Notes under the pieces: generated by a model
Databases searched by the model: none
The model's input: the letters and a program-made list of their open reading frames with translations, nothing else
Told to the model about the DNA's origin: nothing
Program-made: the position numbers and the translations under genes
DNA from: a virus
Virus record (IMG/VR): IMGVR_UViG_3300048687_000051
Location: 1-31,988 of that record
Strand: one strand, 5' to 3'
Length of the DNA: 31,988 nucleotides
In this document: positions 15,788 through 31,859 of the stretch, piece by piece
Position numbering within the stretch: position 1 is the first letter of the stretch
How the letters are laid out: each line of letters opens with the position of its first letter

Positions 15788-16001
15788 CATCTCGCCGCTT
15801 CGCGCCATTCGCGTGGAGCGCGGGATGACTTTGCGGCACACAGCGCAGCTCTCCGGCATCGACCCCGGTTACCTCTCCAAGGTCGAACGCGGACAGAAGC
15901 AGCTCTCCATCGAGTCCCTGTACCGCCTTGCGGTGGTGCTGGAGCTGGCAGACCTGGCCGCGCTTCTGAAGCCATACCTGCACAGCAGGGATGCGGCATG
16001 A
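15759..16001 (+). CDS. Cro-like XRE-family HTH protein
   Basis: The 80-residue product is one HTH_3 domain: SPLRAIRVERGMTLRHTAQLSGIDPGYLSKVERGQKQLS, with recognition helix near residues 34-45. It opens the rightward operon and is divergent from the repressor, so a Cro-type role in choosing growth over lysogeny is the simplest view; activation of early genes is an alternative. The second operator palindrome lies in codons 4-10 of the gene. Its stop overlaps the next ATG. Confidence 0.8.
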   Translation: MQTVSTSALNISPLRAIRVERGMTLRHTAQLSGIDPGYLSKVERGQKQLSIESLYRLAVVLELADLAALLKPYLHSRDAA

Positions 16002-16647: not shown

Positions 16648-16898
16648 CCGAGCGCCCTGGCCAGTGGCCCGTCGATGAGCCCGTCGACCTTGACGCCGTC
16701 GAAGGCGACGACCAGGGCGCCCGCCACCTCCAGCTCGTCGCCGAGCAGGCCCGCTTCCACGTCACGCTCGGCGCGATTCGGGCCGACCTCGAAGCCCAGC
16801 CCAGCCAGGTCTGCCGCCACGCAGCGAAGCGCCGCTGGATCAACGCCATCGCTGCCGCCGCCGACGAGCTGGACCAGCAGCTGAAGAACACCGGGTGA
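16644..16898 (+). CDS. Small early protein of unknown function
   Basis: The 84-residue product starts at ATG 16644 in an ATGA overlap. It is acidic at the N-terminus (WPVDEPVDLDAVEGDD) and helical after residue 28 (HLQLVAEQARFHVTLGAIRA, then NAIAAAADELDQQLK). It is linked by overlaps to its neighbours on both sides, so it belongs to the replication operon. No domain is recognised. Confidence 0.6.
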   Translation: MTERPGQWPVDEPVDLDAVEGDDQGARHLQLVAEQARFHVTLGAIRADLEAQPSQVCRHAAKRRWINAIAAAADELDQQLKNTG

Positions 16899-17881
16899 CC
16901 CGCCCGGCCGGGCCGTCGCGGAGACGACCCGGCCCCCACGGACCGTCACCCCAGCTCGCAGAAGAGAGCCCGTTCGTGAACATCACCATCCCGGCGGTCC
17001 CCCTGGACGCAGCCCTGGCCTACGCCGCGCTCGGCATCAAGGTCTTTCGCGTCCGCCAGAACAAGGCGCCCTACGCCAACTGCCCCCGCTGCGACATCAA
17101 GAGCAGCTTGTACGTCAAACACCGCCCCGAAGACTGCAGGTGCCAGGTACCTACCTGCCACGGCTTCTGGGCAGCAACGACCGACCCGGACCTCATCCGC
17201 AAGTGGTGGACTGAAGAGCCCGACGCAAACGTCGGCGCCCCGTGCAAGCTCAACGGCTGGGCCGTCCTCGACGTCGACCCGCGGAACGGCGGCGACACCT
17301 CGCTCCGCGCCCTCGAGGAGCGCGTCGGTGTGCTGCCCGGCACCGTCACCCAGATCACCGGCGGCAACGGCCTCCACATGCTGTACCTGTCCCCCGGATT
17401 CGACCTCCCCGGCGAACCGTTCCCCGGCATCGACTTCAAGCACAACGGATACATCCTCCTCGCCCCGTCCGTGCACTCCTCCGGCAACCGGTACCAGTGG
17501 CCGGGCACCGGCAACACGTTCCACAAGCCGACGACCGCCTGGCCCAACACGCTGCTGCCCCGCAAGGAGAAGCCGCGGGCCCCCGGCCGCCCCCGCACCC
17601 AGCAGTCCCTGTCCGGGATCCGCCGGCCCGGGAAGCAGTGGACCGTCGCCGCCCTGGTCCAGCACGTGATGGACTCGGCCGAAGGCACCCGGAACGCCAG
17701 CCTTTACTTCGCCGCGTGCCGCGCCCACGAGACAGCCGAGCAGGGCGCACTCGACCTGTACGAGGCAGAGAACGCGCTCGTCGCAGCAGGCCAAGCCGTT
17801 GGCCTCGCCGATGGCGAGATCCTCGCAACGATCCAGAGCGCTGCCCGCCGCCCCTCTGACAAGACCTGGGCGGCAGCATGA
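16895..17881 (+). CDS. Bifunctional DNA primase/polymerase (prim-pol)
   Basis: The protein is 328 residues from GTG 16895 (GTGA overlap); GTG 16976 is an equally possible start, since the first 27 residues are Arg/Pro-rich and not part of the domain. The archaeo-eukaryotic primase fold shows in YAALGIKVFRV, the metal-binding pair D126/D128 in VLDVDPRNGG, H161 in GGNGLHM, and the late strand GYILLAPSVHSSG. A CPRC...CRC group (near residues 68-92) is probably a zinc insert. It would prime and extend DNA at the origin, paired with the helicase encoded next. Such prim-pols drive replication of actinomycete integrative elements. Confidence 0.9.
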   Translation: MTRPAGPSRRRPGPHGPSPQLAEESPFVNITIPAVPLDAALAYAALGIKVFRVRQNKAPYANCPRCDIKSSLYVKHRPEDCRCQVPTCHGFWAATTDPDLIRKWWTEEPDANVGAPCKLNGWAVLDVDPRNGGDTSLRALEERVGVLPGTVTQITGGNGLHMLYLSPGFDLPGEPFPGIDFKHNGYILLAPSVHSSGNRYQWPGTGNTFHKPTTAWPNTLLPRKEKPRAPGRPRTQQSLSGIRRPGKQWTVAALVQHVMDSAEGTRNASLYFAACRAHETAEQGALDLYEAENALVAAGQAVGLADGEILATIQSAARRPSDKTWAAA

Positions 17882-19089
17882 CCACCGCATTCGACGAGGC
17901 CGCGGCCCGGTTCTTCGGCGAAGAGGAACCGCCCGACAGCGACATGCCTCTGCCGGAGCAGGCGACCGGTACGCCGCGCCGCCTGACGCTCACTCCCGCC
18001 TCGGCCATCCGCATTCGCCCCGTCCGATGGCTGTGGGACACCACCCCTCAGGACGCACCGCCCACCTCGCACGGGCGGATCCCCCTCAACTCGCTTGCCA
18101 TCGCGGCGGGCGGCCCGGGGCTGGGCAAGTCCCAGTACGCCTGCTGGATCACAGCCAGGGTCACGACCGGCACTCTTCCGGGAGAGCTGTACGGCAAGCC
18201 GCGCGGCGTCATCTACGCGGCGACCGAGGACTCCTGGTCCATGACGATCGCGCCGCGGCTCTTCGCCGCAGGGGCCGACATGGACAGGGTGTTCCGCGTC
18301 GACGTCCAGGACGACGAGGAACTGCATGCCCGGCTCACCCTGCCCAAGGACATCTCCCTCATGGGGAAGGCCGCCGAGGAGTACAGCGTCGCGCTCCTCG
18401 TCGCCGACCCGCTCCTCTCCATGATCGACGCAGGCATCAACGACTACCGGGCAGCCGAACTCCGTTCCGCTCTCGAACCACTGGTGTCCGCCGCCGACCG
18501 GTACAACTTCACGGTCCTCGGTCTGGCCCACTTCACGAAGGCGGGCGGCGCAGACCCGCTCAGCCGCATCGCCGGGTCCGGGGCGTTCGGGCAAGTCATC
18601 CGTGCGCTGATCGCGTTCGCCAAGGAAGAAGGAGAAGACGGCGTGGACGAGTTCGTCATGAGCCTGGAGAAGAACAACCTCGGCCGGCTCGGCCTGCCAT
18701 CACACAACTACACGATCCAGGCGGCCACCGTCGACACCGACGAAGGGCCGTCCTACGTCTCCCGGTTCGTCCTCGGCCCCGAGGCGACTACGTCGGTCCG
18801 AGATGTCATGCGGGCAGAGAACAACGGCGAGAGCAGCGGCTCGGCGAACGAGGTGACCGAGTGGCTGGAGGGGTTCCTCACAGACCTCGGCGGCTCGCAA
18901 GAGGCACGGGAGATCAAGAAGGCCGCTCGGCAGCAGGCGTTCAGCGACTCGTCGGTGGACCGGGCGAAGAAGAAGCTCGGGATCCGCTCGCGTCAGGAGG
19001 GGTTCGGGAAGGACCGGACGTCCCACTGGTTCCTGCCCACCGCGTGGGTCGAGGAGACCTCGAACAGCAGCCCCTCACACACACGCTGA
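17878..19089 (+). CDS. RecA-fold replicative ATPase/helicase (RepA/AAA_25-like)
   Basis: The 403-residue product starts at ATG 17878 in an ATGA overlap with the prim-pol gene. It has Walker A GGPGLGKS (K84), Walker B LLVADPL (D177), and the late motifs VLGLAHFTK and LSRIAGSGAFGQV, as in hexameric RepA-type helicases. The C-terminal 80 residues are HTH-like (EIKKAARQQAFSDSSVDRAKKKLG) and may bind DNA. It is likely to load on and unwind the origin for the prim-pol. A repeat-rich region follows directly. It is a hexameric-type helicase by fold; the actual oligomer is not visible. Confidence 0.88.
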   Translation: MTTAFDEAAARFFGEEEPPDSDMPLPEQATGTPRRLTLTPASAIRIRPVRWLWDTTPQDAPPTSHGRIPLNSLAIAAGGPGLGKSQYACWITARVTTGTLPGELYGKPRGVIYAATEDSWSMTIAPRLFAAGADMDRVFRVDVQDDEELHARLTLPKDISLMGKAAEEYSVALLVADPLLSMIDAGINDYRAAELRSALEPLVSAADRYNFTVLGLAHFTKAGGADPLSRIAGSGAFGQVIRALIAFAKEEGEDGVDEFVMSLEKNNLGRLGLPSHNYTIQAATVDTDEGPSYVSRFVLGPEATTSVRDVMRAENNGESSGSANEVTEWLEGFLTDLGGSQEAREIKKAARQQAFSDSSVDRAKKKLGIRSRQEGFGKDRTSHWFLPTAWVEETSNSSPSHTR

Positions 19090-20192: not shown

Positions 20193-20684
20193 ATGAGTGG
20201 CGAGACCGTCATTACCATCGTGGGCAATCTCGTGGACGACCCCGAGCTCCGCTACACCCCGGCCGGCGCCGCCGTCGCCAAGTTCCGCATCGCGTCCACG
20301 CCCCGCGTCTTCGACCGGCAGAGCAACGAGTGGAAGGACGGCGACGGCCTGTTCCTCACCTGCTCCGTGTGGCGGCAGGCCGCCGAGAACGTGGCCGAGA
20401 CCCTGACCCGCGGCATGCGCGTAGTCGTCCAGGGCCAGCTGAAGCAGCGGTCCTACGAGGACCGCGACCAGGTGAAGCGCACCGTGTATGAGCTCGACGT
20501 CCACGAGGTCGGCGTCAGCCTGGCCCGCGCCTCGGCGAAGGTCACGAAGAACCCTGCCGGTGGTGGGCAGGCAACGCCTGGTGCCCCGCCCGCACAGCAG
20601 CAGTCCCCGCAGCAGGCTGGCGGCTGGGGCGGGGGCCAGCCCGCGGCTGCAGCTGCCGGCCACTCCTCGAACCCGCCCTTCTGA
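20193..20684 (+). CDS. ssb: Single-stranded DNA-binding protein
   Basis: The 163-residue protein begins [20 protein letters not shown] and contains [13 protein letters not shown] and [16 protein letters not shown], the OB-fold pattern of bacterial SSB (residues 1-110). The remaining part is a Gly/Gln/Ala-rich linker and a tip NPPF, like the acidic DDxPF tip that binds partner proteins, though the acidic residues are lacking. The start at ATG 20193 follows AAGGAGA. It coats single strands during phage or element replication. A weaker acidic tip may limit contact with host repair proteins. Confidence 0.93.
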
Positions 20685-20697
20685 TCGGAGACCACCG

Positions 20698-20910
20698 ATG
20701 TCCAACGAGATGGCGTGGCTGCTGCACGGGGTGCTCCTCGGCATGATGCTGGCCGCGATGGTGCGGCTGGTGTTCGACGCCGTGATCGCCCAGCGTGCGG
20801 CGGAGACTGCCCGTGCCGCCTCGGCCCTGGCGCTGAAGTCGGTCCGCGGTGACGGCTACCTGCTCAGCTTCCGCCAGTACCGACTCGACCAGAAGCGGGA
20901 GGCCGCGTGA
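20698..20910 (+). CDS. Small membrane protein
   Basis: The 70-residue product starts at ATG 20698 with CGGAGA nearby, soon after ssb. One membrane segment (WLLHGVLLGMMLAAMVRLVF, residues 7-26) is followed by a helical, basic cytoplasmic part (AVIAQRAAETARAASALALK). The next gene overlaps its stop (GTGA). No known family. Confidence 0.6.
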   Translation: MSNEMAWLLHGVLLGMMLAAMVRLVFDAVIAQRAAETARAASALALKSVRGDGYLLSFRQYRLDQKREAA

Positions 20911-21203
20911 ACCACGACGACGAGAAGGGGGTGGAGCTAGTCCCTACCCCTGGCGGTGACCAGCAGGGTTTCGCTCAGACCGAAACCCCTGGGGGTGACC
21001 TGTGTGGGGCAGCGGGCAACGCAGGCCCGGCCAACCGTGGCGGTACCGAAACGGTTGGCCTGCGGGACCGGCTGCGCGCGGTATTGCGCCGGCACATCGA
21101 CCCGGACGACGACACCATGCCCGCCCTCGATAACGGCGGCTTCGTATGGGTGCCCACCGACAGCGTCCTCGACGACCTGATCAAGGCGGTGGAGCAGCCG
21201 TGA
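20907..21203 (+). CDS. Unknown protein with repeat-rich N-terminus
   Basis: The 98-residue product starts at GTG 20907. Residues 1-45 are Gly/Pro-rich and encoded by the repeated and inverted segments at 20946-21060; the C-terminal half is a folded part (RDRLRAVLRRHIDPDDD, then WVPTDSVLDDLIKAVE). Overlaps on both sides put it in an operon with the gene that follows. Function unknown. Confidence 0.55.
   Translation: MNHDDEKGVELVPTPGGDQQGFAQTETPGGDLCGAAGNAGPANRGGTETVGLRDRLRAVLRRHIDPDDDTMPALDNGGFVWVPTDSVLDDLIKAVEQP
20946..21060. repeat. Direct and inverted repeats inside a small gene
   Basis: ACCCCTGGCGGTGACC (20946-20961) recurs with one change at 20985-21000. Between them GGGTTTCG (20966-20973) is the inverse of CGAAACCC (20981-20988). 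Further on GGCCAACCGT (21029-21038) is the inverse of ACGGTTGGCC (21051-21060), with GGTACC in the loop. Confidence 0.7.
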
Positions 21204-21838
21204 ACCTGTGCCTGCTGTGCGACGAGCACGACGCCATGGGCGGCCAGCTCTGCCCTGGCTGCACGAAGGCGACCGTCGTGCGCCTTGAGGCCATGCCCAC
21301 CCTGTACGAAGGGCTCCGCCCGTTCCTCACCCCGTCCGCCGCTGTCGCCCAGGGCCGCGGCGGGAAGGGCGGGCCCGCCCCGCTCCCCGTCGTCGAGGGC
21401 ATCCTCGACCTGCGCGGGCTGGTGGTCGGCGCCCTCGAGGACTGGCTGTCCGCCGTCCGCCAGGAGCGCGGCATGAGGCAGTTGGCGTCGCGCCCGGGTG
21501 TCGACGGGCGCCTGGCCGCCGCCGTGTCCGGGCTGATCGGCAACATGCCGTGGATCGCGTCCGCGTGGCCGACTGCCGGCACGTTCGCCGGGGAGATCCG
21601 GGACCTGGCCCGGTCGGTGTCGTCGACGATCGGCCCGCCGGCCACGGCCCGCGGAACCCGGATCGGGAACTGCCCGGCCGTCGACCCGTCGGGGGCTCTG
21701 TGTGGTGCGGTGCTGCGGCTGGCGCCCGGGGAGAAGGCGGTGCGCTGCGAGTGGTGCGGGAACCAGTACCCGCCGTACACGTGGGCCCAGTTGAAGACGT
21801 GGATCGACGAGGACACGGCGGCGAACGATGCGGCATGA
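21200..21838 (+). CDS. Protein with two zinc-ribbon-like ends
   Basis: The 212-residue product starts at GTG 21200 in a GTGA overlap. It has CLLC and CPGC near residues 3-23 and a second group CPAV...C and CEWC near residues 156-190, with a helical middle (VVEGILDLRGLVVGALEDWL). Such a paired-knuckle protein is common in Streptomyces phages and prophages, and I cannot name its role. DNA or RNA binding is plausible. A promoter for the next gene lies after its stop. Confidence 0.65.
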   Translation: MNLCLLCDEHDAMGGQLCPGCTKATVVRLEAMPTLYEGLRPFLTPSAAVAQGRGGKGGPAPLPVVEGILDLRGLVVGALEDWLSAVRQERGMRQLASRPGVDGRLAAAVSGLIGNMPWIASAWPTAGTFAGEIRDLARSVSSTIGPPATARGTRIGNCPAVDPSGALCGAVLRLAPGEKAVRCEWCGNQYPPYTWAQLKTWIDEDTAANDAA

Positions 21839-21858
21839 CACGCGTGTCGCCACCCCCC

Positions 21859-21887
21859 TTGACGTTGTCGCCACCCCTGGTTACATT
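21859..21887 (+). promoter_or_regulatory. Housekeeping-type promoter with direct repeats
   Basis: TTGACG (21859-21864), a 17-base spacer and TACATT (21882-21887) form a strong promoter match. TGTCGCCACCCC occurs at 21845-21856 and again at 21866-21877, a 21-base step, so one repeat abuts the -35 and the other lies in the spacer. A regulator could bind both. Confidence 0.7.
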
Positions 21888-21923
21888 TGTGGGGCAGGCA
21901 CCGCTTCCGGTACTAGGAGGGAC

Positions 21924-22133
21924 GTGACTACGTGGAGAGAGCGCCATGACGCAGCCGTCCGTAAACAGGAAGCCGCACAGCAGGCCTACCGGGAAGCGAC
22001 CGACGAACGGGCGCAAGCCCTGATCGACGGCGAGACCGAACTCGGCAGCCAAGCGGCAGTAGCACGAGAACTCGGGGTCACCCGAGCCGGCATCAGCAGG
22101 GCCATCAACGCCCGCAAGCACAAGCAGGCGTAG
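21924..22133 (+). CDS. Small HTH regulator
   Basis: The 69-residue protein starts at GTG 21924 behind a perfect AGGAGG (21915-21920). An upstream in-frame ATG at 21828 was rejected because it overlaps the prior gene and lacks a ribosome site. The C-terminal part has an HTH: GSQAAVARELGVTRAGISRAI; the N-terminal part is a charged helix (RHDAAVRKQEAAQQAYREA). It has its own promoter and a hairpin after it, so it seems to be a separate unit, perhaps controlling the next operon or itself. Confidence 0.75.
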   Translation: MTTWRERHDAAVRKQEAAQQAYREATDERAQALIDGETELGSQAAVARELGVTRAGISRAINARKHKQA

Positions 22134-22154
22134 CTACACCCCACAACCGAATAC

Positions 22155-22190
22155 GGCCCAAGGCCGGGATTGCAGTCCCGGCCAAGGGCC
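22155..22190 (+). terminator. Nested hairpin before the sigma-like gene
   Basis: GGCCGGGA (22162-22169) pairs with TCCCGGCC (22176-22183) around TTGCAG; an outer GGCCC/GGGCC pair (22155-22159, 22186-22190) extends the stem. No T-run follows. It closes the unit of the HTH gene. Confidence 0.6.
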
Positions 22191-22226
22191 TGACCGAAAC
22201 TCCCTGATCAGAGCAAGGAGACGGCT

Positions 22227-22706
22227 ATGGCTAACTCTGCCATGCCCGCGGCCACCACCGCGATGCCCCCCGCGCAGCAGCTCAATGAGCGCTTCGCCAC
22301 CATCTACGCCGCCTACCTGCCGCGCATCACCGCGCTCGTCGGCAGCCGCATCTTCAACGCCGAGGACAAGCACCTCACCGACGACCTCACCGCCGAAGCG
22401 TTCACCCAGGTATGGCTCCACCTCCACAAGTGCGAGGCCACCACCGACGCGAAGACCTTCAGCTGGGTCGCCACCATCGCCCGCCGCACCGTCGCCCAGC
22501 ACTTCCGCACCAAGAAGAACCTCATGGAGCGGCCCACCGACCTCGGCGACTGGCAGTACGCCAACCGCCCCATGGACCAGGCCGCCGGCTACTACACCCC
22601 CGCCGCTGGCGGCTTCCGCACCGCGGCCCTCGGCAACAGCGTCGACTCAGGCCCGGACATGGACGAGGCCCTGCGCCGCGCCCGCCAGACCGGCGGCGCC
22701 CGATGA
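22227..22706 (+). CDS. Sigma-70-like protein with region 2 only
   Basis: The 159-residue product starts at ATG 22227 behind AAGGAGA. Residues about 20-98 match sigma region 2: LPRITALVGSRIF, then DDLTAEAFTQVWLHL (2.1-2.2) and TFSWVATIARRTVAQHFR (2.3-2.4). After residue 100 no region 4 helix-turn-helix follows; the tail is Gly/Ala-rich. ECF sigma factors need region 4 to read -35 boxes, so this one may act with a partner, at extended -10 promoters, or as an anti-host factor. It starts the operon that leads into the transfer-like block, and its stop overlaps the next ATG. Confidence 0.78.
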   Translation: MANSAMPAATTAMPPAQQLNERFATIYAAYLPRITALVGSRIFNAEDKHLTDDLTAEAFTQVWLHLHKCEATTDAKTFSWVATIARRTVAQHFRTKKNLMERPTDLGDWQYANRPMDQAAGYYTPAAGGFRTAALGNSVDSGPDMDEALRRARQTGGAR

Positions 22707-22957
22707 ACGACATGCGCCTCCTCCTCGAGGTCGTCCTCGAAGCGATCGACTTCCCCCACCACCCGGCGACGACGGCGGACCCCGCCGCGTGCTGGTCCCT
22801 CATGGAGCAGCGAGCCAGCCTCGCCGTCATCATCGCCCGCGCCTCGCTGGCCGAGAACCCGGACGACGTCGGATGGGACGCCGACTACCTCCGCGCGAGG
22901 CTGGCCGAGCTGCCCATCCCCGGCCCCGTAGACCAGGACGCGGAGGCCAGCCGATGA
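22703..22957 (+). CDS. Small acidic protein of unknown function
   Basis: The 84-residue product starts at ATG 22703 in an ATGA overlap with the sigma-like gene. It is acidic and helical (MRLLLEVVLEAIDFPHHPAT, then SLMEQRASLAVIIARASLAE) and has a Pro-rich acidic tail. Overlaps on both sides suggest it works with the sigma-like and DUF6907-like proteins. No family is known to me. Confidence 0.6.
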   Translation: MNDMRLLLEVVLEAIDFPHHPATTADPAACWSLMEQRASLAVIIARASLAENPDDVGWDADYLRARLAELPIPGPVDQDAEASR

Positions 22958-23328
22958 GCGCCCCCCGCACGGTCACCATCCAGACCGCCGACCACGGTGA
23001 CGTCACCGTCCCCGAACCCGACTGGTGCACCGCAGACCACGCCTACGAGCAGTACCGCGAGGACATCGAACACTCCGGGGCCATCACCCACCTCGTCATC
23101 ACCACCGAGTGCCACGGCCCCGCCGCCACCCTGCCCGTCGGCTTCGTGTGGCGCCCCTTCAGCCCGACCGACAACCAGATCACCGCCGCCATCGAGCTGG
23201 ACGCGTGGCACGAGTTCGACCCGGCCGGCCTCGACCGTGCCGCCGCCGCCCTCGTCGAACACGCCGCCACCCTCCGCGTCTACGCCCGCCAGCTCTCCAC
23301 CCTCCGCGCGAAGGGAGCAGGCCGATGA
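22954..23328 (+). CDS. DUF6907-like protein
   Basis: The 124-residue product starts at ATG 22954 (ATGA overlap). The pattern PEPDWCTADHAYEQYREDIEH, followed by paired strands and a C-terminal helix with the late segment DAWHEFDPAGLDRAAAALVE, fits DUF6907 proteins of Streptomyces integrative elements, which occur beside transfer genes. Their role is not known. This position beside the SpdB-like gene repeats the order in such elements. The family name is from memory of the pattern. Confidence 0.65.
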   Translation: MSAPRTVTIQTADHGDVTVPEPDWCTADHAYEQYREDIEHSGAITHLVITTECHGPAATLPVGFVWRPFSPTDNQITAAIELDAWHEFDPAGLDRAAAALVEHAATLRVYARQLSTLRAKGAGR

Positions 23329-24842
23329 ACATCACGAAGCCCCTCAACGGGGTACCCGCCATCCCCGTTCCGGGAGCGGCGCCCGCCGCTTCGGGGACAC
23401 CGGCCCTCGTTACGGGTGCCACCGTTCCCGTTCCGGGAGCAGCCTCGAAGGAGGCGACCAGGACGCTTCGGTTCCTCACCGCCCTGGCCGTCGCCGGCGG
23501 TGTCGTCCTCGCCGCGATCGGCTTCACCGGCTCCTACTCCGGGCTCGTCAAGCTGGGCGAGCAGCACCACTTCGGCTGGTTCTCCCACGTCTTCCCGGTC
23601 GGGATCGACGCCGGGATCGTGGTGCTCCTCGCCCTCGACCTGCACATGATCCGCAAGCGGACACCGTGGCCCCTCATCCGGGTGATCGCCCACGTCCTGA
23701 CCGTCCTGACGATCGCGTTCAACGCCGCTGCGGCACCCGGCCCGGTCCGCTCCGACCTCGTCGGTGCGGCCATGCACGGGGTCCTGCCCGTCCTGTTCAT
23801 CGCCGCTGTCGAGGCCGCCCGCAGGCTCCTCATCAAGGCCGCCCGCATCGAAGCCGGGATCGACTCGGACGGAGTGCCGCTGCACCGCTGGGCCCTTGCC
23901 CCCTGGTCGTCATGGGCCATGTTCCGGCGGATGAAGCTGTACGGGCTGACCTCATACACGCAGGCCGTGGCCATGGAGCAGACCCGTGTGGTGTACGGGC
24001 AGATGCTGAAGCAGCAGACGGCGAAGGAGGGCCGCAAGGCGACGCCGGCGGAGCTCCTGCCGTTGACGATGGCCCGCTTCGGTCTGTCCGTCGACGAAGC
24101 CCTGGCCCTACCCCAGGAGGCCGAGGAGGCTGCCCGGCTGCGCGACGAGCAGGAGGAGCAGCGCAAGGCTGACGCCGAGTCCCGTGCCGTGCAGCGCGCC
24201 AAGCGCGCCGAGATCGAGCGGTTGCAGAGCGCTGGTGAGATCGAGGCCGCACGGCATCAGGTGGCGGCACAGACCGGGGTGGCCGCGGCGGAGTCCAAGG
24301 CATCCCGGGCCGAGGCCGAGGCGCTTGCCGCAGCCCGCACGGAGGCCGCAGCGAAGGGCGCGGCGGCGATCGAGTCCGCAGACGAAGCGGATGCGAACAA
24401 GCGTGCGGCCGAAGCGGATCGGGCCGCAGCCGAAACGCGACGGCGCGCAGCCGAAACGAACCGGGCCGCAGCCGAAGCGGAGCAGGCGGCGGCAGAGGCG
24501 CGGCGTATCGCAGCCGAGAACAGGCAGGCCGAGGCCGAGGCTCACAGGCTCACCGAGGCGGCTTCCAAGGCTGCGGCTGAAGCGCAACGGCGTGCAGTCG
24601 AAACGAGGGCGGCCGCGGCTGAACTGGAGCTGCAGGCGGTCGAAGCGGAGGACCAGGCCCGCCTCACCCCGAAGGAGCGCGGCGCCCGGAAGGTCGCCCG
24701 GATGATCCTCGCGGCAGGCGGCCAGGACGCCGAGCAGGTGGAACTGACGGCCATCGCCGATGCCCTCGGAGTGTCCGTCAGCACAGCATCGGAACGCCGG
24801 CGTGAGGCCATGGATCTCCTGCGCGAGGGGTACCGGCCGTGA
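23325..24842 (+). CDS. DUF2637/SpdB2-type membrane protein with coiled-coil tail and HTH
   Basis: The 505-residue protein starts at ATG 23325. Residues 45-170 hold four membrane segments with the DUF2637 pattern (FLTALAVAGGVVLAAIGFTG, then VFPVGIDAGIVVLLALDLHM). Plasmid SpdB2 proteins of this kind bind DNA and TraB and aid spreading of plasmids through septal walls of the mycelium. Residues about 260-445 form a long Ala/Glu/Arg coiled coil with seven-residue repeats. The last 65 residues (ERGARKVARMILAAGGQ, then ALGVSVSTASERRREAMDLL) look like a DNA-binding HTH. The coiled coil and HTH are larger than in the classic SpdB2, so it may link membrane to DNA. Confidence 0.85.
   Translation: MNITKPLNGVPAIPVPGAAPAASGTPALVTGATVPVPGAASKEATRTLRFLTALAVAGGVVLAAIGFTGSYSGLVKLGEQHHFGWFSHVFPVGIDAGIVVLLALDLHMIRKRTPWPLIRVIAHVLTVLTIAFNAAAAPGPVRSDLVGAAMHGVLPVLFIAAVEAARRLLIKAARIEAGIDSDGVPLHRWALAPWSSWAMFRRMKLYGLTSYTQAVAMEQTRVVYGQMLKQQTAKEGRKATPAELLPLTMARFGLSVDEALALPQEAEEAARLRDEQEEQRKADAESRAVQRAKRAEIERLQSAGEIEAARHQVAAQTGVAAAESKASRAEAEALAAARTEAAAKGAAAIESADEADANKRAAEADRAAAETRRRAAETNRAAAEAEQAAAEARRIAAENRQAEAEAHRLTEAASKAAAEAQRRAVETRAAAAELELQAVEAEDQARLTPKERGARKVARMILAAGGQDAEQVELTAIADALGVSVSTASERRREAMDLLREGYRP
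24399..24545 (+). repeat. Seven tandem 21-bp units encoding heptads
   Basis: Each unit encodes a heptad close to RAAAEA plus one residue (RAAAETR, RRAAETN, RAAAEAE, QAAAEAR and others). The regular heptad step supports a long coiled coil in the SpdB2-type protein and points to growth by unit duplication. Confidence 0.8.
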
Positions 24843-25144
24843 GCGACTTCGAGAAAGCGGCCCGTGACGCCACGGACGCCGCCGCGAACAGCGAGCAGGT
24901 CGCCCTGATCCTCGCCCTCCTCCAGGCGCAGCAGCTCACACAGCAGCCGGTCACCCCGCCCGCACCGGCGCCCGCCGCCCGGGCATCCGGCGGCACGGCC
25001 AAGTGGGTGGGTATCGGGGCCGGCGGGTCCGTGTTCCTCCTCGCCCTGGCCGTGTCCGCGGTCGCCGTCGCGATCAGCGCGGTCGCCCTCACCATCTGCG
25101 TCCTCGTCCTGCGCGCCGTCTGGCAGGACATCCGCAAGGGCTGA
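24839..25144 (+). CDS. Small membrane protein of the spread block
   Basis: The 101-residue product starts at GTG 24839 in a GTGA overlap with the SpdB2-type gene. Residues 1-50 are soluble and end in a Pro/Ala-rich linker (TPPAPAPAARA), then two close hydrophobic segments span 54-92 (WVGIGAGGSVFLLALAVSAV, then AISAVALTICVLVLRAV). Streptomyces plasmids carry a similar small membrane protein next to spdB. A role in the transfer complex is inferred from position. Confidence 0.65.
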   Translation: MSDFEKAARDATDAAANSEQVALILALLQAQQLTQQPVTPPAPAPAARASGGTAKWVGIGAGGSVFLLALAVSAVAVAISAVALTICVLVLRAVWQDIRKG

Positions 25145-25155
25145 CGACTGCCCGC

Positions 25156-25180
25156 GGCGCCCGGAGTGTGACCGGGCGCC
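25156..25180 (+). terminator. 9-bp hairpin between transfer-block genes
   Basis: GGCGCCCGG (25156-25164) pairs with CCGGGCGCC (25172-25180) around AGTGTGA. No T-run follows, so it might reduce downstream transcription or protect messages. Confidence 0.5.
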
Positions 25181-25226
25181 AAGGGGAGCCGGGACAGTCC
25201 GGCACCCACACATCAAGGAGGACCCC

Positions 25227-25391
25227 ATGACCGAACAGACCCCCGAGTTCGACCTTGCCGAGCTCGCCGCCGAGGCCGCCCAGCGGGATGCCGCCGCACG
25301 GGCCGAATACCTGGCCGCCCACGGGCCCACCGACCGCCAGGAGGCCTTCTACGGGTGCCACGGCAGCCACGGCAGCCGAAGCGTCCGCTGA
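25227..25391 (+). CDS. Small acidic protein with His/Cys tail
   Basis: The 54-residue product starts at ATG 25227 behind AAGGAGGA (25215-25222), one of the best ribosome sites in the window. The sequence has an acidic, Ala-rich helix (EFDLAELAAEAAQRDAAARA), then GCHGSHGSRSVR at the end. It lies in the series of very small genes before traB-like. The role is unknown; similar short genes occur at this place in Streptomyces plasmids. Confidence 0.7.
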   Translation: MTEQTPEFDLAELAAEAAQRDAAARAEYLAAHGPTDRQEAFYGCHGSHGSRSVR

Positions 25392-25491
25392 CAAGACAAC
25401 TCAGCCCCGGCATCCAAGCCGCGAGGGCGCCCGATCGAAACGGGCCCGGGGCGCCACCGACCATCAGGTCGGTCATACCGAAGGAGACGTC

Positions 25492-25668
25492 ATGTTCGGA
25501 CGCAAGAACAGCACCAGCGCAGCTGAGGTCGCCACCCGCAGCGCCCAGGTCGTCGGTCGGACCGTCGCCGGAGACCGGGGCGGCGAGGTCGCCAACAAGG
25601 TCACTGGAGCCCTTGGCCTCGGACGCGTCGAGAAGTGCAGCGACCCGAAGTGCGACTGCTGCAACTGA
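25492..25668 (+). CDS. 58-residue protein with Cys-rich tail
   Basis: The product starts at ATG 25492 behind AAGGAGA. Residues 1-48 are Gly/Ala-rich and basic (FGRKNSTSAAEVATRSAQVV), and the last nine residues carry four Cys (KCSDPKCDCCN), a possible metal site. Upstream bases 25456-25473 form a hairpin (ACCGACC/GGTCGGT). It resembles no family I can name but sits in the small-gene run typical of spd regions. Confidence 0.65.
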   Translation: MFGRKNSTSAAEVATRSAQVVGRTVAGDRGGEVANKVTGALGLGRVEKCSDPKCDCCN

Positions 25669-25684
25669 CCCCCGAGAGGACACC

Positions 25685-25744
25685 GTGCACCCGTACCTGA
25701 TCACCGCGAAGCCGGGCTGGTTCCCGCCGGGCACTGACCACTGA
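25685..25744 (+). CDS. Possible 19-residue peptide
   Basis: GTG 25685 opens a 19-codon frame ending at TGA 25744, with GAGAGGA just upstream and its stop shortly before the next ribosome site. The peptide is HPYLITAKPGWFPPGTDH after the start, aromatic and Pro-rich. A lone short frame could be chance, but the spacing and ribosome site fit a real gene in a run of small genes. Confidence 0.4.
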   Translation: MHPYLITAKPGWFPPGTDH

Positions 25745-25763
25745 CGACCAGGAAGGACACCCC

Positions 25764-26090
25764 ATGTACAGCTACACCCGAGCCGAGTCCCGCGAGCGCC
25801 GCCGCCTCTTCCTCAGGGGCGCCCACCAGGCCCTCGGCAACAACCTCGACCCCGCGGTGACCCGCCGCATGCACGAGATCGACGCCAAGGCCGCCGAGCG
25901 CGGCGCCCGGGAGCTCGCCGCCCTGCAGTCCAAGACCGACGCCGACCGCCAGGCCGTCGCCGACGCCAAGGCCCAGGTCAAGACCAGCAAGTGGGGTGCC
26001 GACCGGGCCGCCGCCCGCGACGCCCTGCGCGCTGCGGAGAAGCAGCTGCGGCGCTCCGAGAACGTCCTGCACCGCGCCGAACAGTCCTAG
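25764..26090 (+). CDS. Coiled-coil protein before the translocase gene
   Basis: The 108-residue product starts at ATG 25764 with GGAAGGA upstream. It is highly charged and helical almost throughout (KAAERGARELAALQSKTDAD, then AARDALRAAEKQLRRSENVL), with a likely coiled coil from residue 40 onwards. It may bind or recruit the translocase, but that is only position-based. A large hairpin separates it from the next gene. Confidence 0.65.
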   Translation: MYSYTRAESRERRRLFLRGAHQALGNNLDPAVTRRMHEIDAKAAERGARELAALQSKTDADRQAVADAKAQVKTSKWGADRAAARDALRAAEKQLRRSENVLHRAEQS

Positions 26091-26096
26091 CCACGC

Positions 26097-26140
26097 CACG
26101 GGGCGGCCGCGAATCCGCCAAGACCACCGGCCGCCCCGTG
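26097..26140. terminator. Perfect 13-bp inverted repeat before traB-like gene
   Basis: CACGGGGCGGCCG (26097-26109) pairs with CGGCCGCCCCGTG (26128-26140) around an 18-base loop. No T-run follows. It may stop the spd unit, set relative expression of the translocase gene, or bind a protein. Confidence 0.6.
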
Positions 26141-26176
26141 CCCCTGACCACCCAACGAGCAGCAGGAGAACCCATC

Positions 26177-28315
26177 ATGACGGACACCATCCCCGGCCCG
26201 GTCAACGGGCACACCATCGAGAAGCTGCACCCCGTCCCCCCGGAGGCCGTCACCGAGCCCCGCAGCGAGCAGCCGCCCCCGGCGCCCGAGGACGCGACCG
26301 GCACGGCCGCCCCGGTCATGGTCGACAACAAGAACCTGCCCTCACCTGGGGTGACGCAGGAGAAGCGGCGACCCATCCTCGCCGGATGGCTGAAGAACCG
26401 GTCCGACTTCCTGGCCACCACCCGGCACGCCGGGGCGAACGCCGGATACGCCGCCCTGTTCCACGGGCTGCGCCTGCCCGTCTACTCCGCACGGCTCACC
26501 CTGATGGCCCCGCGGGGCGCCTGCCGGTTCATCGCCGACACCAACCGGTGGGTGTGGGACCGCGAGGCCGCGCCACTGCGGGAGGCCGCCGTGCGTGCCG
26601 AGGACGCCGCCGAATACATGACCCTGTCCAGGCTGCGCGCCAACCGGGTACGGCTCCGCGGCCTGGTCACCGTGGTCGCCGCCGTGTTCGGTACCGGGTT
26701 CGCCCTGTGGCTGTACGTCATGGCCCCCGGCTTCCTGTACGCCTTCGCCACCGGCGGTGTGCTGCTGTGCGGGCTGGCCGGCCAGGAGAAGGACGCCCCG
26801 GTCATTGGCCCCGCCGTGCTGAAGACCGAGGTCCAGAAGCTCACCGGCTCGATCGTGCTCCGCGGCCTGGACGCCGTCGGCAACGCGAAGATCTCCGCCG
26901 CGATCAAGAAGGGCGGCGACATGAACGGCATGCGGTTCGTCTCCGAGATCGTCCGCGACGGACCCGGATACCGCGCTGACCTGGACCTTCCCTACGGTGT
27001 GACGCCCGAGGACATCATGGAAGCCCGCCGCCCGCTCGCCTCCGGGCTGCGCCGCAAGCTCGGCTGCGTGTGGCCCGCCCCCGACCCTGACGAGCACGAA
27101 GGCCGTCTCATCCTGTGGGTTGGCGACAAGCCGATGAACGAGACGACGAAGCCGGCGTGGCCGCTCCTTAAGGACGGGCAGGTCGACCTGTTCCGCCCCG
27201 TCGTGTTCGGCAACGACCAGCGCATGCGCGAGATGGCCGTGACGCTGATGTTCGCCTCCGTCGTTGTCGGCTCCATCCCCCGCATGGGCAAGACGTTCCT
27301 GATGCGGCTGCTGCTCCTGATCGCCGCCCTAGACCCGCGGGCCGAGATCCACGCGTTCGACTTCAAGGGCACCGGCGACTTCAAGGCCCTGGAGCCCGTG
27401 TGCCACCGCTACCGGGCCGGTGAGGAGCCCGAGGACGTCGAGTACGTCGTCCAGGCGCTGCGGGAGCTCAAAGCCGAGCTGCGGCGCCGCGCCAAGGTCA
27501 TCAAGGGCCTGCCCAGCAGCATCTGCCCGGAATCGAAGGTGACCAGTGCCCTGGCCAGCGACAAGCGGTACGGGCTCCACCCGATCGTCGCCGGGTTCGA
27601 CGAGTGCCAGGTGCCCTTCGAGGACGAGAAGTACGGGGCCGAGATCGAGGCGATCTGCACCGACCTCACGAAGCGCGGCCCGGCGCTGGGCATCGTCGCC
27701 ATGTTCGGCACCCAGCGGCCCGACGCGAAGTCCCTGCCGCCGGGCATCAGCGCCAACGCCGTCCTGCGGTTCGCCCTGAAGGTCATGGGGCACACCGCGA
27801 ACGACATGGTGCTGGGCACCGGTGCGTACAAGGCCGGGATCCGGGCCACGATGTTCTCCCGCTCCGACCGGGGCATCTGCTGGATGTCCGGTGAGGGCGA
27901 CGACCCGCGCATCGTCGCCTCCGCGTTCGTCGACGCCCCCGCCGCGGAGAAGGTCGCCGCCCGGGCCCGGCAGCTGCGCGAGGCCTACGGCAACATCACC
28001 GGGCACGCCATCGGGCAGGGCCCCGAAGCGTCGGTCGGCATGGACGTCCTCGGCGACGTCCTGAAGGTCATCGCCGCCGACGAGAAGACCATGTGGTGCG
28101 AGCGGATCGCCGCCCGCCTGGCCGCGCTCCGGCCCGACACCTACGCCGGGTGGAAGGCCGAGAACGTCACCACCGCACTCAAGCCGTGGGGCGTGAAGAC
28201 CGACCAGGTGTGGGGGCAGACCGACGAAGGCGAAGGCAAGAACCGGCGAGGCATCAAGCGCGCCGACGTGGCCGCCGCGATCACCCGCCGCGACGCCGAC
28301 CGGGCCGCCACCTAG
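26177..28315 (+). CDS. TraB/FtsK-type DNA translocase
   Basis: The 712-residue protein starts at ATG 26177 behind AGGAGA. Residues about 160-203 hold two membrane segments. The motor domain has Walker A GSIPRMGKT (K372), Walker B VAGFDECQ (D475, E476) and a late motif GTQRPDAKSLPPGISANAV. The C-terminal part (TWCERIAARLAAL-like segment and beyond) looks like a winged helix for reading DNA. Proteins of this type move double-stranded DNA through septa: TraB in Streptomyces conjugation and FtsK in segregation. Its context (SpdB-like gene, small genes, nearby repeats) supports transfer over chromosome segregation. The AR-rich end and lack of a long linker separate it from host FtsK. Confidence 0.9.
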   Translation: MTDTIPGPVNGHTIEKLHPVPPEAVTEPRSEQPPPAPEDATGTAAPVMVDNKNLPSPGVTQEKRRPILAGWLKNRSDFLATTRHAGANAGYAALFHGLRLPVYSARLTLMAPRGACRFIADTNRWVWDREAAPLREAAVRAEDAAEYMTLSRLRANRVRLRGLVTVVAAVFGTGFALWLYVMAPGFLYAFATGGVLLCGLAGQEKDAPVIGPAVLKTEVQKLTGSIVLRGLDAVGNAKISAAIKKGGDMNGMRFVSEIVRDGPGYRADLDLPYGVTPEDIMEARRPLASGLRRKLGCVWPAPDPDEHEGRLILWVGDKPMNETTKPAWPLLKDGQVDLFRPVVFGNDQRMREMAVTLMFASVVVGSIPRMGKTFLMRLLLLIAALDPRAEIHAFDFKGTGDFKALEPVCHRYRAGEEPEDVEYVVQALRELKAELRRRAKVIKGLPSSICPESKVTSALASDKRYGLHPIVAGFDECQVPFEDEKYGAEIEAICTDLTKRGPALGIVAMFGTQRPDAKSLPPGISANAVLRFALKVMGHTANDMVLGTGAYKAGIRATMFSRSDRGICWMSGEGDDPRIVASAFVDAPAAEKVAARARQLREAYGNITGHAIGQGPEASVGMDVLGDVLKVIAADEKTMWCERIAARLAALRPDTYAGWKAENVTTALKPWGVKTDQVWGQTDEGEGKNRRGIKRADVAAAITRRDADRAAT

Positions 28316-28412
28316 GCCCGAGCAGGGCCGCTAGACCTAGCACCCCCACCCGCTAGGTCTAGCAGGCCCGCTAGCACCGAATAGGGCCCCTGAGCAGGCA
28401 TCTAACGCCTAG
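28312..28412. repeat. CTAG-rich repeat cluster, candidate clt/transfer site
   Basis: CTAG, a rare tetramer in Streptomyces DNA, occurs seven times: 28312, 28331, 28337, 28353, 28359, 28371 and 28409. GCTAGACCTAGC (28330-28341) and GCTAGGTCTAGC (28352-28363) are a perfect 12-bp inverted pair with a 10-base C-rich loop. Further units share GCAGG and CCGCTAG (28322-28334 and 28363-28374). It directly follows the translocase gene. TraB proteins bind 8-bp repeats in the clt locus at this place in plasmids such as pSVH1. Confidence 0.7.
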
Positions 28413-28465
28413 CGGGGCCCCTCACCACACCAGGAATCACCCGCATCCGGGAGGAGAACAACCCC

Positions 28466-28708
28466 GTGGTCATCACTAGCGCCGCCCTGCTCGCCGCCAC
28501 CCTCTACTACGCCGCTGTGTGCGCTCTGCGGCCGTTCACCCCGTGCCGAAGGTGCCGCGGCCTCGGCCAGATCGAACGCTTCAAGAAGCCCCGCCTGTGC
28601 CCCCGCTGCCACGGCAACAAGCTCCGGCTGCGCGTCGGCCGGCGCGCCTTCAACGCCTGGCAGCGCACCCGCCAGGCAGGCACCCGCCCCACCCCTGGAG
28701 GTCTGTAA
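28466..28708 (+). CDS. Half-DnaJ zinc protein with membrane segment
   Basis: The 80-residue protein starts at GTG 28466 behind GGGAGGAG. Residues 1-22 are hydrophobic (VITSAALLAATLYYAAVCAL). They are followed by CRRCRGLGQ and CPRCHGNK, two of the four CxxCxGxG motifs of DnaJ, so one zinc site can form. Arg-rich residues follow. It is a known type of small gene next to translocase genes in Streptomyces elements, with no known role. It may sit on the membrane near the transfer complex. Confidence 0.7.
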   Translation: MVITSAALLAATLYYAAVCALRPFTPCRRCRGLGQIERFKKPRLCPRCHGNKLRLRVGRRAFNAWQRTRQAGTRPTPGGL

Positions 28709-28741
28709 GGTCCCCCAGTTCCTGGAGATGTAGCTACACCC

Positions 28742-28776
28742 GAGGCCCCGGCCGTCACCACGGCGACCGGGGCCTC
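28742..28776. terminator. 10-bp hairpin after half-DnaJ gene
   Basis: GAGGCCCCGG (28742-28751) pairs with CCGGGGCCTC (28767-28776); an inner CCGT/ACGG pair adds to the stem. No T-run follows. Confidence 0.65.
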
Positions 28777-28826
28777 CGCAGAAGCAGCCTGCGCTGTCAG
28801 ACCCCACTGGAACCATGAACGTTAAA

Positions 28827-28857
28827 GCCCCGGCGGCTGCGTCAACAGCCCCGGGGC
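28827..28857 (+). promoter_or_regulatory. Leader stem-loop before GIY-YIG gene
   Basis: GCCCCGG (28827-28833) pairs with CCGGGGC (28851-28857) and GGCTG (28835-28839) with CAGCC (28846-28850), with one bulged C and a CGTCAA loop. It lies between the previous hairpin and the AGAGGAG of the next gene. It would be coding if the gene began at ATG 28815. Confidence 0.6.
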
Positions 28858-28883
28858 GCGGCCGATCGTCAGAGGAGATCGAC

Positions 28884-29462
28884 TTGTACGAGGATAACCG
28901 CGTCCACATCTGGGGCCCCGACACCCAGGCCCGTCCATTGGACCCCGAGAACCTCACTGCCGCCGGGCGTCTGATCGACAGGGACGACCCCGCCCTGACC
29001 GAGATCCTTCAGGCGTTTGGCAGCATCGCCGGCCAGTTGGGGAATCTCGCCGAACCCGACGAAGACACGGTGCGCATGGCCATCCGACTCGGCCGAGCCC
29101 GCTACCTGCGCATGCAGGAGGGCACCGAACCGCCACGAGGCACCTCTGCCCGCGAACGCACCAACGGCTGGATCTACTACATCCGCCGCGGCGCCATGGT
29201 CAAGATCGGCACGACCGTAGACCTGTACAAGCGCATGGCGGCTCTCCTGCCGGAAGAAGTGCTCGCCATCGAGCCAGGAAGCCACGCCAAGGAAGCAGAG
29301 CTCCACCGCAGTTTCCGTACTCTCCGCGTCCCTGGACAGCGCGAGTGGTTCTACGCTGGCAGCGAGCTCCAAGCGCACATTAAGCGCGTCCGCGACTGCA
29401 ACGTGCCTCCGCCGGCCGATCTGCCGACCCTCCCGTCTGCAGCTGGCATCCTGGACGAGTGA
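28884..29462 (+). CDS. GIY-YIG superfamily (T5orf172-like) protein
   Basis: From TTG 28884 the protein has 192 residues, with AGAGGAG (28871-28877) 6 bases upstream. ATG 28815 would add 23 residues but has no ribosome site and runs through a hairpin, so it was not chosen. Residues about 95-165 show GWIYYIRRGAMVKIGTTVDL, RMAALLP, E..LHRSFRTLRV and WFYAGSEL, the T5orf172/MUG113 form of GIY-YIG. Such domains are nucleases or DNA-interacting parts of mobile elements. The N-terminal half has a helical segment (LTEILQAFGSIAGQLGNL) of unknown use. The nuclease function is inferred, not shown. The stop overlaps the next start. Confidence 0.75.
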   Translation: MYEDNRVHIWGPDTQARPLDPENLTAAGRLIDRDDPALTEILQAFGSIAGQLGNLAEPDEDTVRMAIRLGRARYLRMQEGTEPPRGTSARERTNGWIYYIRRGAMVKIGTTVDLYKRMAALLPEEVLAIEPGSHAKEAELHRSFRTLRVPGQREWFYAGSELQAHIKRVRDCNVPPPADLPTLPSAAGILDE

Positions 29463-29635
29463 GCAGACTCGTTGACACCGCCGCCGCCCAGCTCGGCATG
29501 AACGTGAAGCCCGCGACCATGCGGAAGTGGCTGGAGCGCGGCAAGCTGACGAAACACGGCCACGACTACTACGGGCGGGCCATCGTCGACCTCGACGAAA
29601 TCGAGAAGATCCTCGCCGCATGCCAGGCCGCTTGA
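29459..29635 (+). CDS. Excisionase-like MerR/HTH_17 protein
   Basis: The 58-residue product starts at GTG 29459 in a GTGA overlap with the previous gene. The pattern DTAAAQLGMNVKPATMRKWLERGKL, then GRAIVDLDEIEKILAA, is the winged-helix form of excisionase and HTH_17 proteins, with an N-terminal recognition helix around residues 18-26. In Streptomyces integrative elements Xis of this type binds near attP and steers excision, but there with tyrosine integrases. With a serine integrase it could be a directionality factor or a plain regulator. It is the last + strand gene of this block. Confidence 0.7.
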   Translation: MSRLVDTAAAQLGMNVKPATMRKWLERGKLTKHGHDYYGRAIVDLDEIEKILAACQAA

Positions 29636-31057: not shown

Positions 31058-31072
31058 CAGGAGGTGGCGCCC

Positions 31073-31348
31073 GTGGCCGGCAACCCCCGCAACGGGCGCC
31101 CCTACCGCCGCCTCGTCACCCAGCAACGCGGCTACGGCCTCCCCTGCTGGCTCTGCGGCCACGCCATCGGCTACCAGCTCGACGCCCGACACCCGCTCAG
31201 CTTCACCCTCGACCACCTCGTCCCCCTCAGCCGCGGCGGCAGCCTCCTCGACCCCGCCAACGCCCGCTCAGCGCACCGCCGGTGCAACAGCGCCCGAGGC
31301 AACCGCACCGAGCGCAGAGCCGCCACCAAGACCTCATGGAAGTGGTGA
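31073..31348 (+). CDS. HNH endonuclease near the packaging end
   Basis: The 91-residue product starts at GTG 31073 with GGAGG (31060-31064); GTG 31064 would overlap the ribosome site. It has CWLCG, then LDHLVPLSRGG, N in DPANARSAH and HRRCNSARGNR, the full HNH motif with two zinc knuckles. Small HNH proteins beside terminase genes aid cos cleavage in HK97-type packaging. That fits the location at the end of the window, before terS. The enzyme cuts DNA with a single metal ion. Confidence 0.9.
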   Translation: MAGNPRNGRPYRRLVTQQRGYGLPCWLCGHAIGYQLDARHPLSFTLDHLVPLSRGGSLLDPANARSAHRRCNSARGNRTERRAATKTSWKW

Positions 31349-31350
31349 CC

Positions 31351-31434
31351 ATGACGCAGAAGACCACGCTCACGCCCAGGCGGACGCCCGTCCCGCCACC
31401 GCCACCGCCACCGAAGTGCCCATGCTGTACGTAA
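31351..31434 (+). CDS. Possible 27-residue Pro-rich peptide
   Basis: ATG 31351 opens 27 codons that end at TAA 31434, overlapping the kinase start. The product has a run of seven Pro and ends PKCPCCT. The only ribosome-like sequence is GGAAG. It may be a real leader peptide coupling HNH and kinase translation, or chance. Confidence 0.25.
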   Translation: MTQKTTLTPRRTPVPPPPPPPKCPCCT

Positions 31435-31859
31435 TCACCGGCCCCCCGGCCGCCGGGAAGTCCTCGTACATCAAGGCGCGCGCCAAGGCGTCGGACATCG
31501 TCATCGACCTCGACCTCATGGCCCAAGCCATGGCCGGCCCCGGAGCAGACCACCACGCGCACGGCGACGTCCTCATGAAGGTCGTGCACCGAGCCCGGTT
31601 CGCCGCCCTCACCGAGGCCTACCAGCACCTCGACACCACCGACGTCTACGTCATCCACACCCAGCCCAGCACCAAGGCCATGGCCAAGTACAAGCGACTC
31701 AAGGCACGCATCGTGGTCGTCGACCCAGGCCAGGCCATCGTGATGAAGCGCATCGAGACCATGCGGCAGCCCGGCATGAAGGCCGTGGCCACCCGCTGGT
31801 ACCGGGCACGCCGGCAGCAGCCACACGGAGCGATGCCCCAGGGCTCGTGGGAGTGGTGA
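31416..31859 (+). CDS. P-loop kinase / AAA-type ATPase
   Basis: The 147-residue product starts at GTG 31416 or ATG 31422; neither has a clear ribosome site, so it may depend on translation from upstream. Walker A is GPPAAGKSSY near residues 9-18; a second acidic group VIDLDLMAQAM may bind metal; a late basic helix (TRWYRARRQQ) follows. The pattern fits polynucleotide or zeta-toxin-like P-loop kinases. Similar genes lie beside HNH and terminase genes in Streptomyces phages and may work on DNA ends or nucleotides. The exact substrate is unknown. Confidence 0.75.
   Translation: MPMLYVITGPPAAGKSSYIKARAKASDIVIDLDLMAQAMAGPGADHHAHGDVLMKVVHRARFAALTEAYQHLDTTDVYVIHTQPSTKAMAKYKRLKARIVVVDPGQAIVMKRIETMRQPGMKAVATRWYRARRQQPHGAMPQGSWEW

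Follow-up and report, generated by a model that had tools for sequence, protein, structure and literature searches.

A putative TraB-type DNA transfer cassette and its candidate CTAG loading site in a genome fragment of a temperate Streptomyces siphophage

The IMG/VR virus record IMGVR_UViG_3300048687_000051, 31,988 bases in length and classed as linear and incomplete, was analysed over its whole length (hereafter the window). It carries a set of plasmid-type transfer genes among phage genes. This set probably represents a cassette for the transfer of double-stranded DNA, of the type known from actinomycete integrative and conjugative elements (AICEs) and plasmids, residing inside a temperate Streptomyces siphophage, with its TraB/FtsK-type motor loading at a conserved CTAG element. 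The parts of the cassette would be a DUF2637 SpdB2-like membrane protein, small accessory proteins, the membrane-anchored motor, the cis-acting CTAG element and a small protein with a DnaJ-type zinc motif (DnaJ-Zn). An earlier sequence-only reading of the same DNA had proposed a transfer module but had missed the conserved CTAG element (Table 1).

Results

CTAG element downstream of the motor gene

An element of about 90 nt lies between the stop codon of the motor gene and the DnaJ-Zn gene. It is composed of the inverted pair GCTAGACCTAGC (28330-28341)-N10-GCTAGGTCTAGC (28352-28363), one GCTAGC and a distal CTAG half. The window has few CTAG tetranucleotides, and 6 of the 16 copies are located inside the 150-bp gap after the motor gene (P about 8e-11). 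The element was detected at the matching place in nearly all relatives of the motor locus, phage and AICE alike, and its CTAG blocks are invariant over 30 aligned loci. The inverted CTAG pair is a real signal, brought out by comparing loci. Clustered direct 7-9-mers resembling the repeats of the TraB recognition sequence (TRS) or of the plasmid transfer locus clt were also considered, and were rejected as coding-repeat noise, mostly from the DUF2637 tail.

Using the element as a DNA pattern alone, we detected it in 37 of 296 Streptomyces genomes, while the reversed-pattern control gave 0. The motor gene stands beside the element in 26 of 30 loci found with the pattern, two of these motors being only 35-36% identical to that of the window. 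In IMG/VR (2.9 million contigs), the element is carried by 16 contigs; the motor was observed on 15 of them, and terL or portal on many. On contig L123 the element is accompanied by DnaJ-Zn and terL, and the motor gene would fall past the contig end. The four exceptions among the 30 loci are three integrative elements (L109-L111), for which a search of the 20 kb taken with the hidden Markov model (HMM) of the motor family gave no motor, plus one locus (L112) that looks like a remnant. The three, L109 (12204), L110 (9933) and L111 (10473), come from Streptomyces genomes and have a tyrosine integrase, Xis and the CTAG element beside a phosphoglycerate mutase gene; they are candidate hitchhiking (mobilizable) elements. 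At L112 the element is likewise near a phosphoglycerate mutase gene, without an integrase match.

Covariation of the element core and the winged helix of the motor

The C-terminal 94 residues of the motor are predicted with high confidence to form a winged helix (AlphaFold2 pLDDT 93), of which the structural matches to winged helix-turn-helix regulators are weak. Based on the half-site centres, the element falls into three core classes, AC/GT, GT/AC and GC/GC, and these core variants track the recognition residues of the winged helix. R669 is present in 10/10 motors of the GT/AC class against 0/45 others, all 45 of which have K, and 7/8 motors of the GC/GC class have A662 and P666. Among the top 20 most informative columns, 16 are located in residues 620-712 against 3.8 expected, and R669 and A662 are placed by the predicted structure on the recognition helix (residues 661-671). 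The core class changed 10-11 times on the motor-only trees but only 3 times on the C-terminal tree, and therefore the winged helix and the element travel as a pair while the motors change. We read the CTAG element as the candidate loading site, which the motor probably recognises. A role of the motor in DNA transfer is likely, because a conserved element occupies the known place of clt and its variants track the DNA-binding domain of the motor.

The CTAG element could instead control the motor operon, as an operator or as an RNA attenuator, the cargo site being elsewhere or the cassette idle. Its inverted repeat with two compensatory pairs and its position between the motor and DnaJ-Zn genes would fit such a control site, but we regard this as quite unlikely in view of the core variants following the recognition helix, the presence of the element on integrative elements without a motor found, and the purifying selection on the motor described below. 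Moreover, no Rfam family matched at the gathering threshold, the sub-threshold match to a miRNA model covering the inverted repeat only.

Properties and descent of the motor

The Walker A (GKT, 371-373) and Walker B (DE, 475-476) motifs of the motor are intact and invariant in 22-24 homologues. Its fold matches the FtsK motor and TcpA in a full-length AlphaFold model of low overall confidence, which is too weak to be read outside the C-terminal domain, and long hydrophobic helices are predicted at about residues 144-202 from the sequence and the predicted secondary structure. The motor has no internal stops, and its dN/dS was 0.07-0.34 in 10 of 11 pairs and 0.59 against the divergent motor of viral contig L016; the motor is under purifying selection.

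By tblastn (E 1e-3), no match to the motor was found among 50,697 phage records, while 35 plasmids were matched, the best (56%) being the 18.4-kb integrative plasmid of Streptomyces NBC_00562, which carries DUF2637, the motor, DnaJ-Zn, Prim-Pol, Xis and a tyrosine integrase. A total of 48 nearer relatives with 66-81% identity were collected from viral contigs and Streptomyces genomes, including both phages and AICEs. The phage contexts show the order motor, DnaJ-Zn, HNH/kinase, terL and portal, or a convergent tail module; the AICE contexts contain DUF2637, an RRQRL protein, the motor, DnaJ-Zn, Prim-Pol, Xis and an integrase. Two loci (L018 and L047) were left unclassified, their surroundings being ambiguous or cut. 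In most of the relatives examined, a gene for DUF2637 or another polytopic SpdB-like protein precedes the motor gene by 1.5-3 kb, and in most relatives the DnaJ-Zn gene adjoins the CTAG element.

When the tree is restricted to the motor part, the window motor groups with 12 AICE motors (97% support in the Shimodaira-Hasegawa-like approximate likelihood ratio test, SH-aLRT), 17 phage motors form a separate clade (99%) and the phage motor of L016 stands at a third place. Together with the lack of matches among the phage records, this grouping speaks against the phage-only lineage of translocases that the sequence-only reading had named as a possible objection to its proposal. We class the window translocase as an AICE/plasmid-type TraB. 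Since the phage backbones nearest to the window, L016 and the prophage of Streptomyces sp. NBC_00620, bear motors of other clades, the cassette must have been exchanged, and at least three separate associations of phages with this TraB motor family are implied.

Phage backbone of the window

Tail genes, the tape measure gene and the endolysin gene fill the left part of the window (PHROG). These genes and the serine integrase gene are located upstream of the transfer cassette, and the genes for an HNH endonuclease and a P-loop kinase/TerS-like protein downstream. The flanking phage genes expected from the sequence-only reading were thus found on both sides, except that terL, portal and capsid genes were not detected in the 31,988-base record by Pfam, PHROG and open reading frame (ORF) scans. 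The terminases of these actinophages escape the Pfam TerL model PF03354, and tblastn with the head proteins of L016, VWB, pFP4 and pPaSha2 was used instead.

Contig L016 shares the backbone of the window, with identities of 68% for the major tail protein (MTP), 73% for HNH and 59% for the kinase, and its genes are arranged in the order motor, Xis-like, HNH, kinase, terL, portal, protease, capsid, head-tail adaptor and MTP. The chromosomal prophage of Streptomyces sp. NBC_00620 is collinear, containing tail genes, MTP (65%), portal, terL, kinase, HNH, DnaJ-Zn and motor. The kinase/TerS-like gene precedes terL in the relatives L016, L017 and L051. Of the gene set of a temperate siphophage, tail, lysis, integrase and repressor genes were seen in the window and the head module only in L016 and the NBC_00620 prophage. 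Because these two carry the head genes in matching layout, the missing head module is most simply explained by a stretch lacking from the record between its right end, at the kinase gene, and its left end, at the head-tail adaptor. From the comparison with these relatives, we regard the record as part of the genome of a temperate Streptomyces siphophage that encodes a serine integrase.

AICEs are defined by the combination of Int, Rep and Tra modules (PMC3218068), and they have no virion genes. The window contains a serine integrase, Prim-Pol and an FtsK-type Tra, but also tail, tape measure and endolysin genes, and it is therefore a phage and not an AICE. With virion and transfer genes on a single replicon, it resembles the plasmid-phages of the pZL12/pFP4 type. 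ParA and ParB were not detected among the window proteins scanned with Pfam and PHROGs, some small ORFs being outside the scan and the record being a fragment; a serine integrase is present instead.

The neighbourhood of the cassette also bears on two other explanations. First, the motor might serve the virion, in packaging or head assembly, given that the cassette lies directly upstream of HNH, kinase and terL in the relatives. These relatives, however, retain their own TerL and portal, and the motor family is also present in an 18-kb integrative plasmid and in AICEs without detected virion genes; this very improbable packaging role was considered and rejected. Second, the record, a linear fragment, might be a metagenomic chimera or a decayed prophage with an AICE placed beside a phage. 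This is hardly credible, as the same junctions recur across independent contigs and also in the chromosome of an isolate, which contradicts an assembly chimera, and the motor is without stops, its dN/dS staying below 1.

Gene organization of the window

The features of the window are summarized in Table 1. The genes named by the sequence-only reading on this strand (Prim-Pol, helicase, SSB, DUF6907, DUF2637, FtsK, DnaJ and HTH_17) were all identified by Pfam/PHROG, three of the Pfam scores being below cut-off, and the small membrane and very small ORFs between DUF2637 and FtsK were seen in the ORF scan. As to the claim that the gene order follows that of AICEs, it holds for the cassette (SpdB2-like protein, small ORFs, TraB and DnaJ-Zn) but not for the replication genes and thus not for the whole order: Prim-Pol of AICEs is encoded downstream of TraB, and the replication genes of the window match those of AICEs weakly at best. 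They are the phage's own, in a different order from AICEs.

Table 1. Features identified in the window (SSB, single-stranded DNA-binding protein; HTH, helix-turn-helix)
Feature	Position	Strand	Basis
Large serine integrase	13370..14890	+	PHROG integrase 3e-77
Repressor-like HTH protein	14917..15669	-	PHROG repressor 2e-3, HTH_31 1e-3
XRE-type HTH regulator	15759..16001	+	HTH_3 5e-11
Prim-Pol primase/polymerase, phage replication, outside AICE-type cassette	16895..17881	+	Pfam 7e-31
RecA-fold AAA_25 helicase	17878..19089	+	Pfam 4e-20; PHROG DNA polymerase/primase 4e-50
SSB	20193..20684	+	Pfam 5e-29
Sigma-70 region 2-only protein	22227..22706	+	Pfam 3e-8
DUF6907 protein	22954..23328	+	Pfam 9e-25
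DUF2637 (SpdB2-like) membrane protein	23325..24842	+	Pfam 5e-34
Small membrane protein; homologues upstream of motor in other phages	24839..25144	+	locus comparison
58-aa protein common to pFP4 and an AICE (52%)	25492..25668	+	locus comparison
108-aa protein preceding motor	25764..26090	+	43% homologue in L047
TraB/FtsK-type dsDNA translocase, 712 aa	26177..28315	+	PHROG FtsK-like 3e-22; Pfam FtsK/SpoIIIE 1e-3 (below cut-off)
Motor C-terminal winged-helix domain (predicted), recognition helix residues 661-671	28031..28312	+	AlphaFold2 pLDDT 93; covariation
CTAG element, candidate TraB loading site (clt-like)	28330..28416	+	comparison of loci
Small protein, hydrophobic N-terminus and DnaJ-type zinc motif CXXCXGXG	28466..28708	+	Pfam 4e-5 (below cut-off)
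T5orf172/MUG113 (GIY-YIG-like) protein	28815..29462	+	Pfam 1e-5 to 2e-5, over cut-off
HTH_17 (Xis-like) protein	29498..29635	+	Pfam 2e-3 (below cut-off); 49% homologue, matching place in phage L016
HNH endonuclease	31064..31348	+	PHROG 1e-24
P-loop kinase/TerS-like protein	31416..31859	+	PHROG 6e-35

The DUF2637 protein (505 aa) has a long, charged, coiled-coil-like tail, and its homologues were found in 337 plasmid records, with 52-53% identity in pFP4. The sigma-70 region 2-only protein, encoded upstream of the cassette, has a 30% homologue near tra on a plasmid of S. decoyicus (L004, NZ_CP107886.1); the genes of this 29,140-bp plasmid are listed twice in identical order, representing a dimer or an assembly duplicate. 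The gene for the T5orf172/MUG113 protein is located between the DnaJ-Zn and Xis-like genes.

Discussion

Proposed mode of transfer

On the model of AICE-type transfer, the serine integrase would excise the phage DNA, which would then circularise. The C-terminal winged helix of TraB would bind the CTAG element, and a TraB ring, formed at the hyphal tip or at a septum, would pump the double-stranded phage DNA into the adjoining compartment or into a recipient hypha. SpdB-type proteins are linked to intramycelial spread, and the SpdB2-like protein may help the DNA across septa. The phage would thereby spread by two routes, as particles and as naked DNA. The motor and its probable recognition site suggest, without proving it, that the virus may also move between hyphae without making particles.

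Several points weigh against this model. The record is incomplete and does not show all the genes of the phage itself. The element is chiefly an inverted pair, whereas the known clt sites have direct repeats, and with its two compensatory pairs the inverted repeat could act in RNA. Since the element and the coding region of the winged helix adjoin on the DNA, block recombination alone could yield their association and mimic covariation, and the sign test on independent pairs (4:0 of 5 pairs, p=0.125) is underpowered.

It is also conceivable, though unlikely, that the motor moves phage or chromosomal DNA within one mycelium during infection, across septa or in genome segregation, and not between individuals by conjugation. 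The cassette shares its strand with the replication and packaging genes, and SpdB-type proteins have been tied to intramycelial spread (PMC4170104). On the other hand, the closest motors belong to AICEs and plasmids, where they are used for transfer between individuals, and a cis site beside the motor suits the transfer of a defined molecule.

Should the proposed transfer cassette be functional, lysogeny in mycelial bacteria would comprise a path from cell to cell that needs no lysis, and the boundary between phage and integrative conjugative element would have been crossed repeatedly in Streptomyces. The CTAG element would supply a recognition code for one family of conjugative motors, one that is short and can be tested, and the covarying helix positions would predict which motor moves which element. 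The element can also serve as a DNA signature with which to search for such elements, among them possible hitchhikers without a motor. More tentatively, a family of integrating Streptomyces phages might combine particles with TraB-driven conjugation of double-stranded DNA, the recognition code being common to phages, AICEs and motorless elements, so that a phage motor would mobilise AICE-like elements and the reverse.

Comparison with known transfer systems

In pWTY27, the clt site takes in the final 16 bp of traA together with the 159 bp that follow, and TraA binds to it (PMC3583192). According to citations in PMC3583192 and PMC4170104, TraB of pSVH1 recognises 8-bp repeats through helix alpha-3 in its winged-helix domain. 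The window agrees with both in having an FtsK-like motor, with pWTY27 in the place of the candidate cis site, at the 3' end of the tra gene or directly behind it, and with pSVH1 in the C-terminal winged helix as the recognition domain, which is a prediction for the window. The sites of both plasmids are direct repeats of 7-8 bp, whereas the candidate site of the window is an inverted 12-bp CTAG pair. AICEs and integrative plasmids (the 18.4-kb plasmid of NBC_00562 and loci L019-L026) have a TraB 56-81% identical to that of the window, a DUF2637/SpdB-like gene upstream, and a CTAG-type element and DnaJ-Zn gene directly downstream of the motor. Both differ in the absence of detected virion genes, a tyrosine integrase, and Prim-Pol and rep downstream of TraB, in contrast to the serine integrase and phage modules of the window.

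The translocases of the cultured Mycobacterium phages Thibault and Bobby and of the cultured Streptomyces phage Gilgamesh are FtsK-fold ATPases like that of the window, but they align with plasmid motors along only a portion of their length, at about 27-28% identity, and have no detectable match to the window motor. Pseudonocardia plasmid pPaSha2 (L003, CP052773.1) combines virion genes (terminase, portal and capsid) with DUF2637 and a motor 43% identical to that of the window; it is recorded as a circular plasmid and lacks a CTAG element after the motor. A second Pseudonocardia plasmid (L128, NZ_CP053567.1) likewise carries DUF2637, FtsK and a phage terminase, and both are probably phage-plasmids, equipped with transfer genes, from a genus other than Streptomyces. 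In Nonomuraea gerenzanensis (L007, NZ_LT559118.1), a 39% identical motor is followed by a related CTAGCGCTAG/CTATCGCTAG element; this sequence is listed as a plasmid in PLSDB, but its size of 11.85 Mb suggests a chromosome.

Conjugative phages of Streptomyces are not a new idea, the plasmid-phages pZL12 and pFP4 being known already. Transfer of pZL12 is cited in PMC3583192, and plasmid-phages are described in PMC4170104, citing Chen 2012, as conjugating as episomes and making infective particles. Like the window, pFP4 carries virion genes, in its case for head and tail, together with DUF2637 and FtsK genes on a single molecule. Its FtsK was not recovered by BLAST with the window motor or by the motor-family HMM, and no CTAG element was found after its ftsK; the element is therefore not general to all Streptomyces Tra systems. 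Chen 2012 is reportedly the paper on pFP4. In the open-access literature, no worked-out TraB transfer role was found for an integrating Streptomyces phage, and the paper on the Samy prophage does not mention FtsK or TraB. The plasmid-phages pFP4 and pZL12 have a plasmid state with ParA, whereas the window represents an integrating phage with an AICE-type motor. As far as the tools used here and this literature show, what appears to be new is an exchangeable AICE-type cassette of motor plus site, which integrating Streptomyces phages acquired in at least three separate events, and a covarying recognition element common to phages, AICEs and motorless elements.

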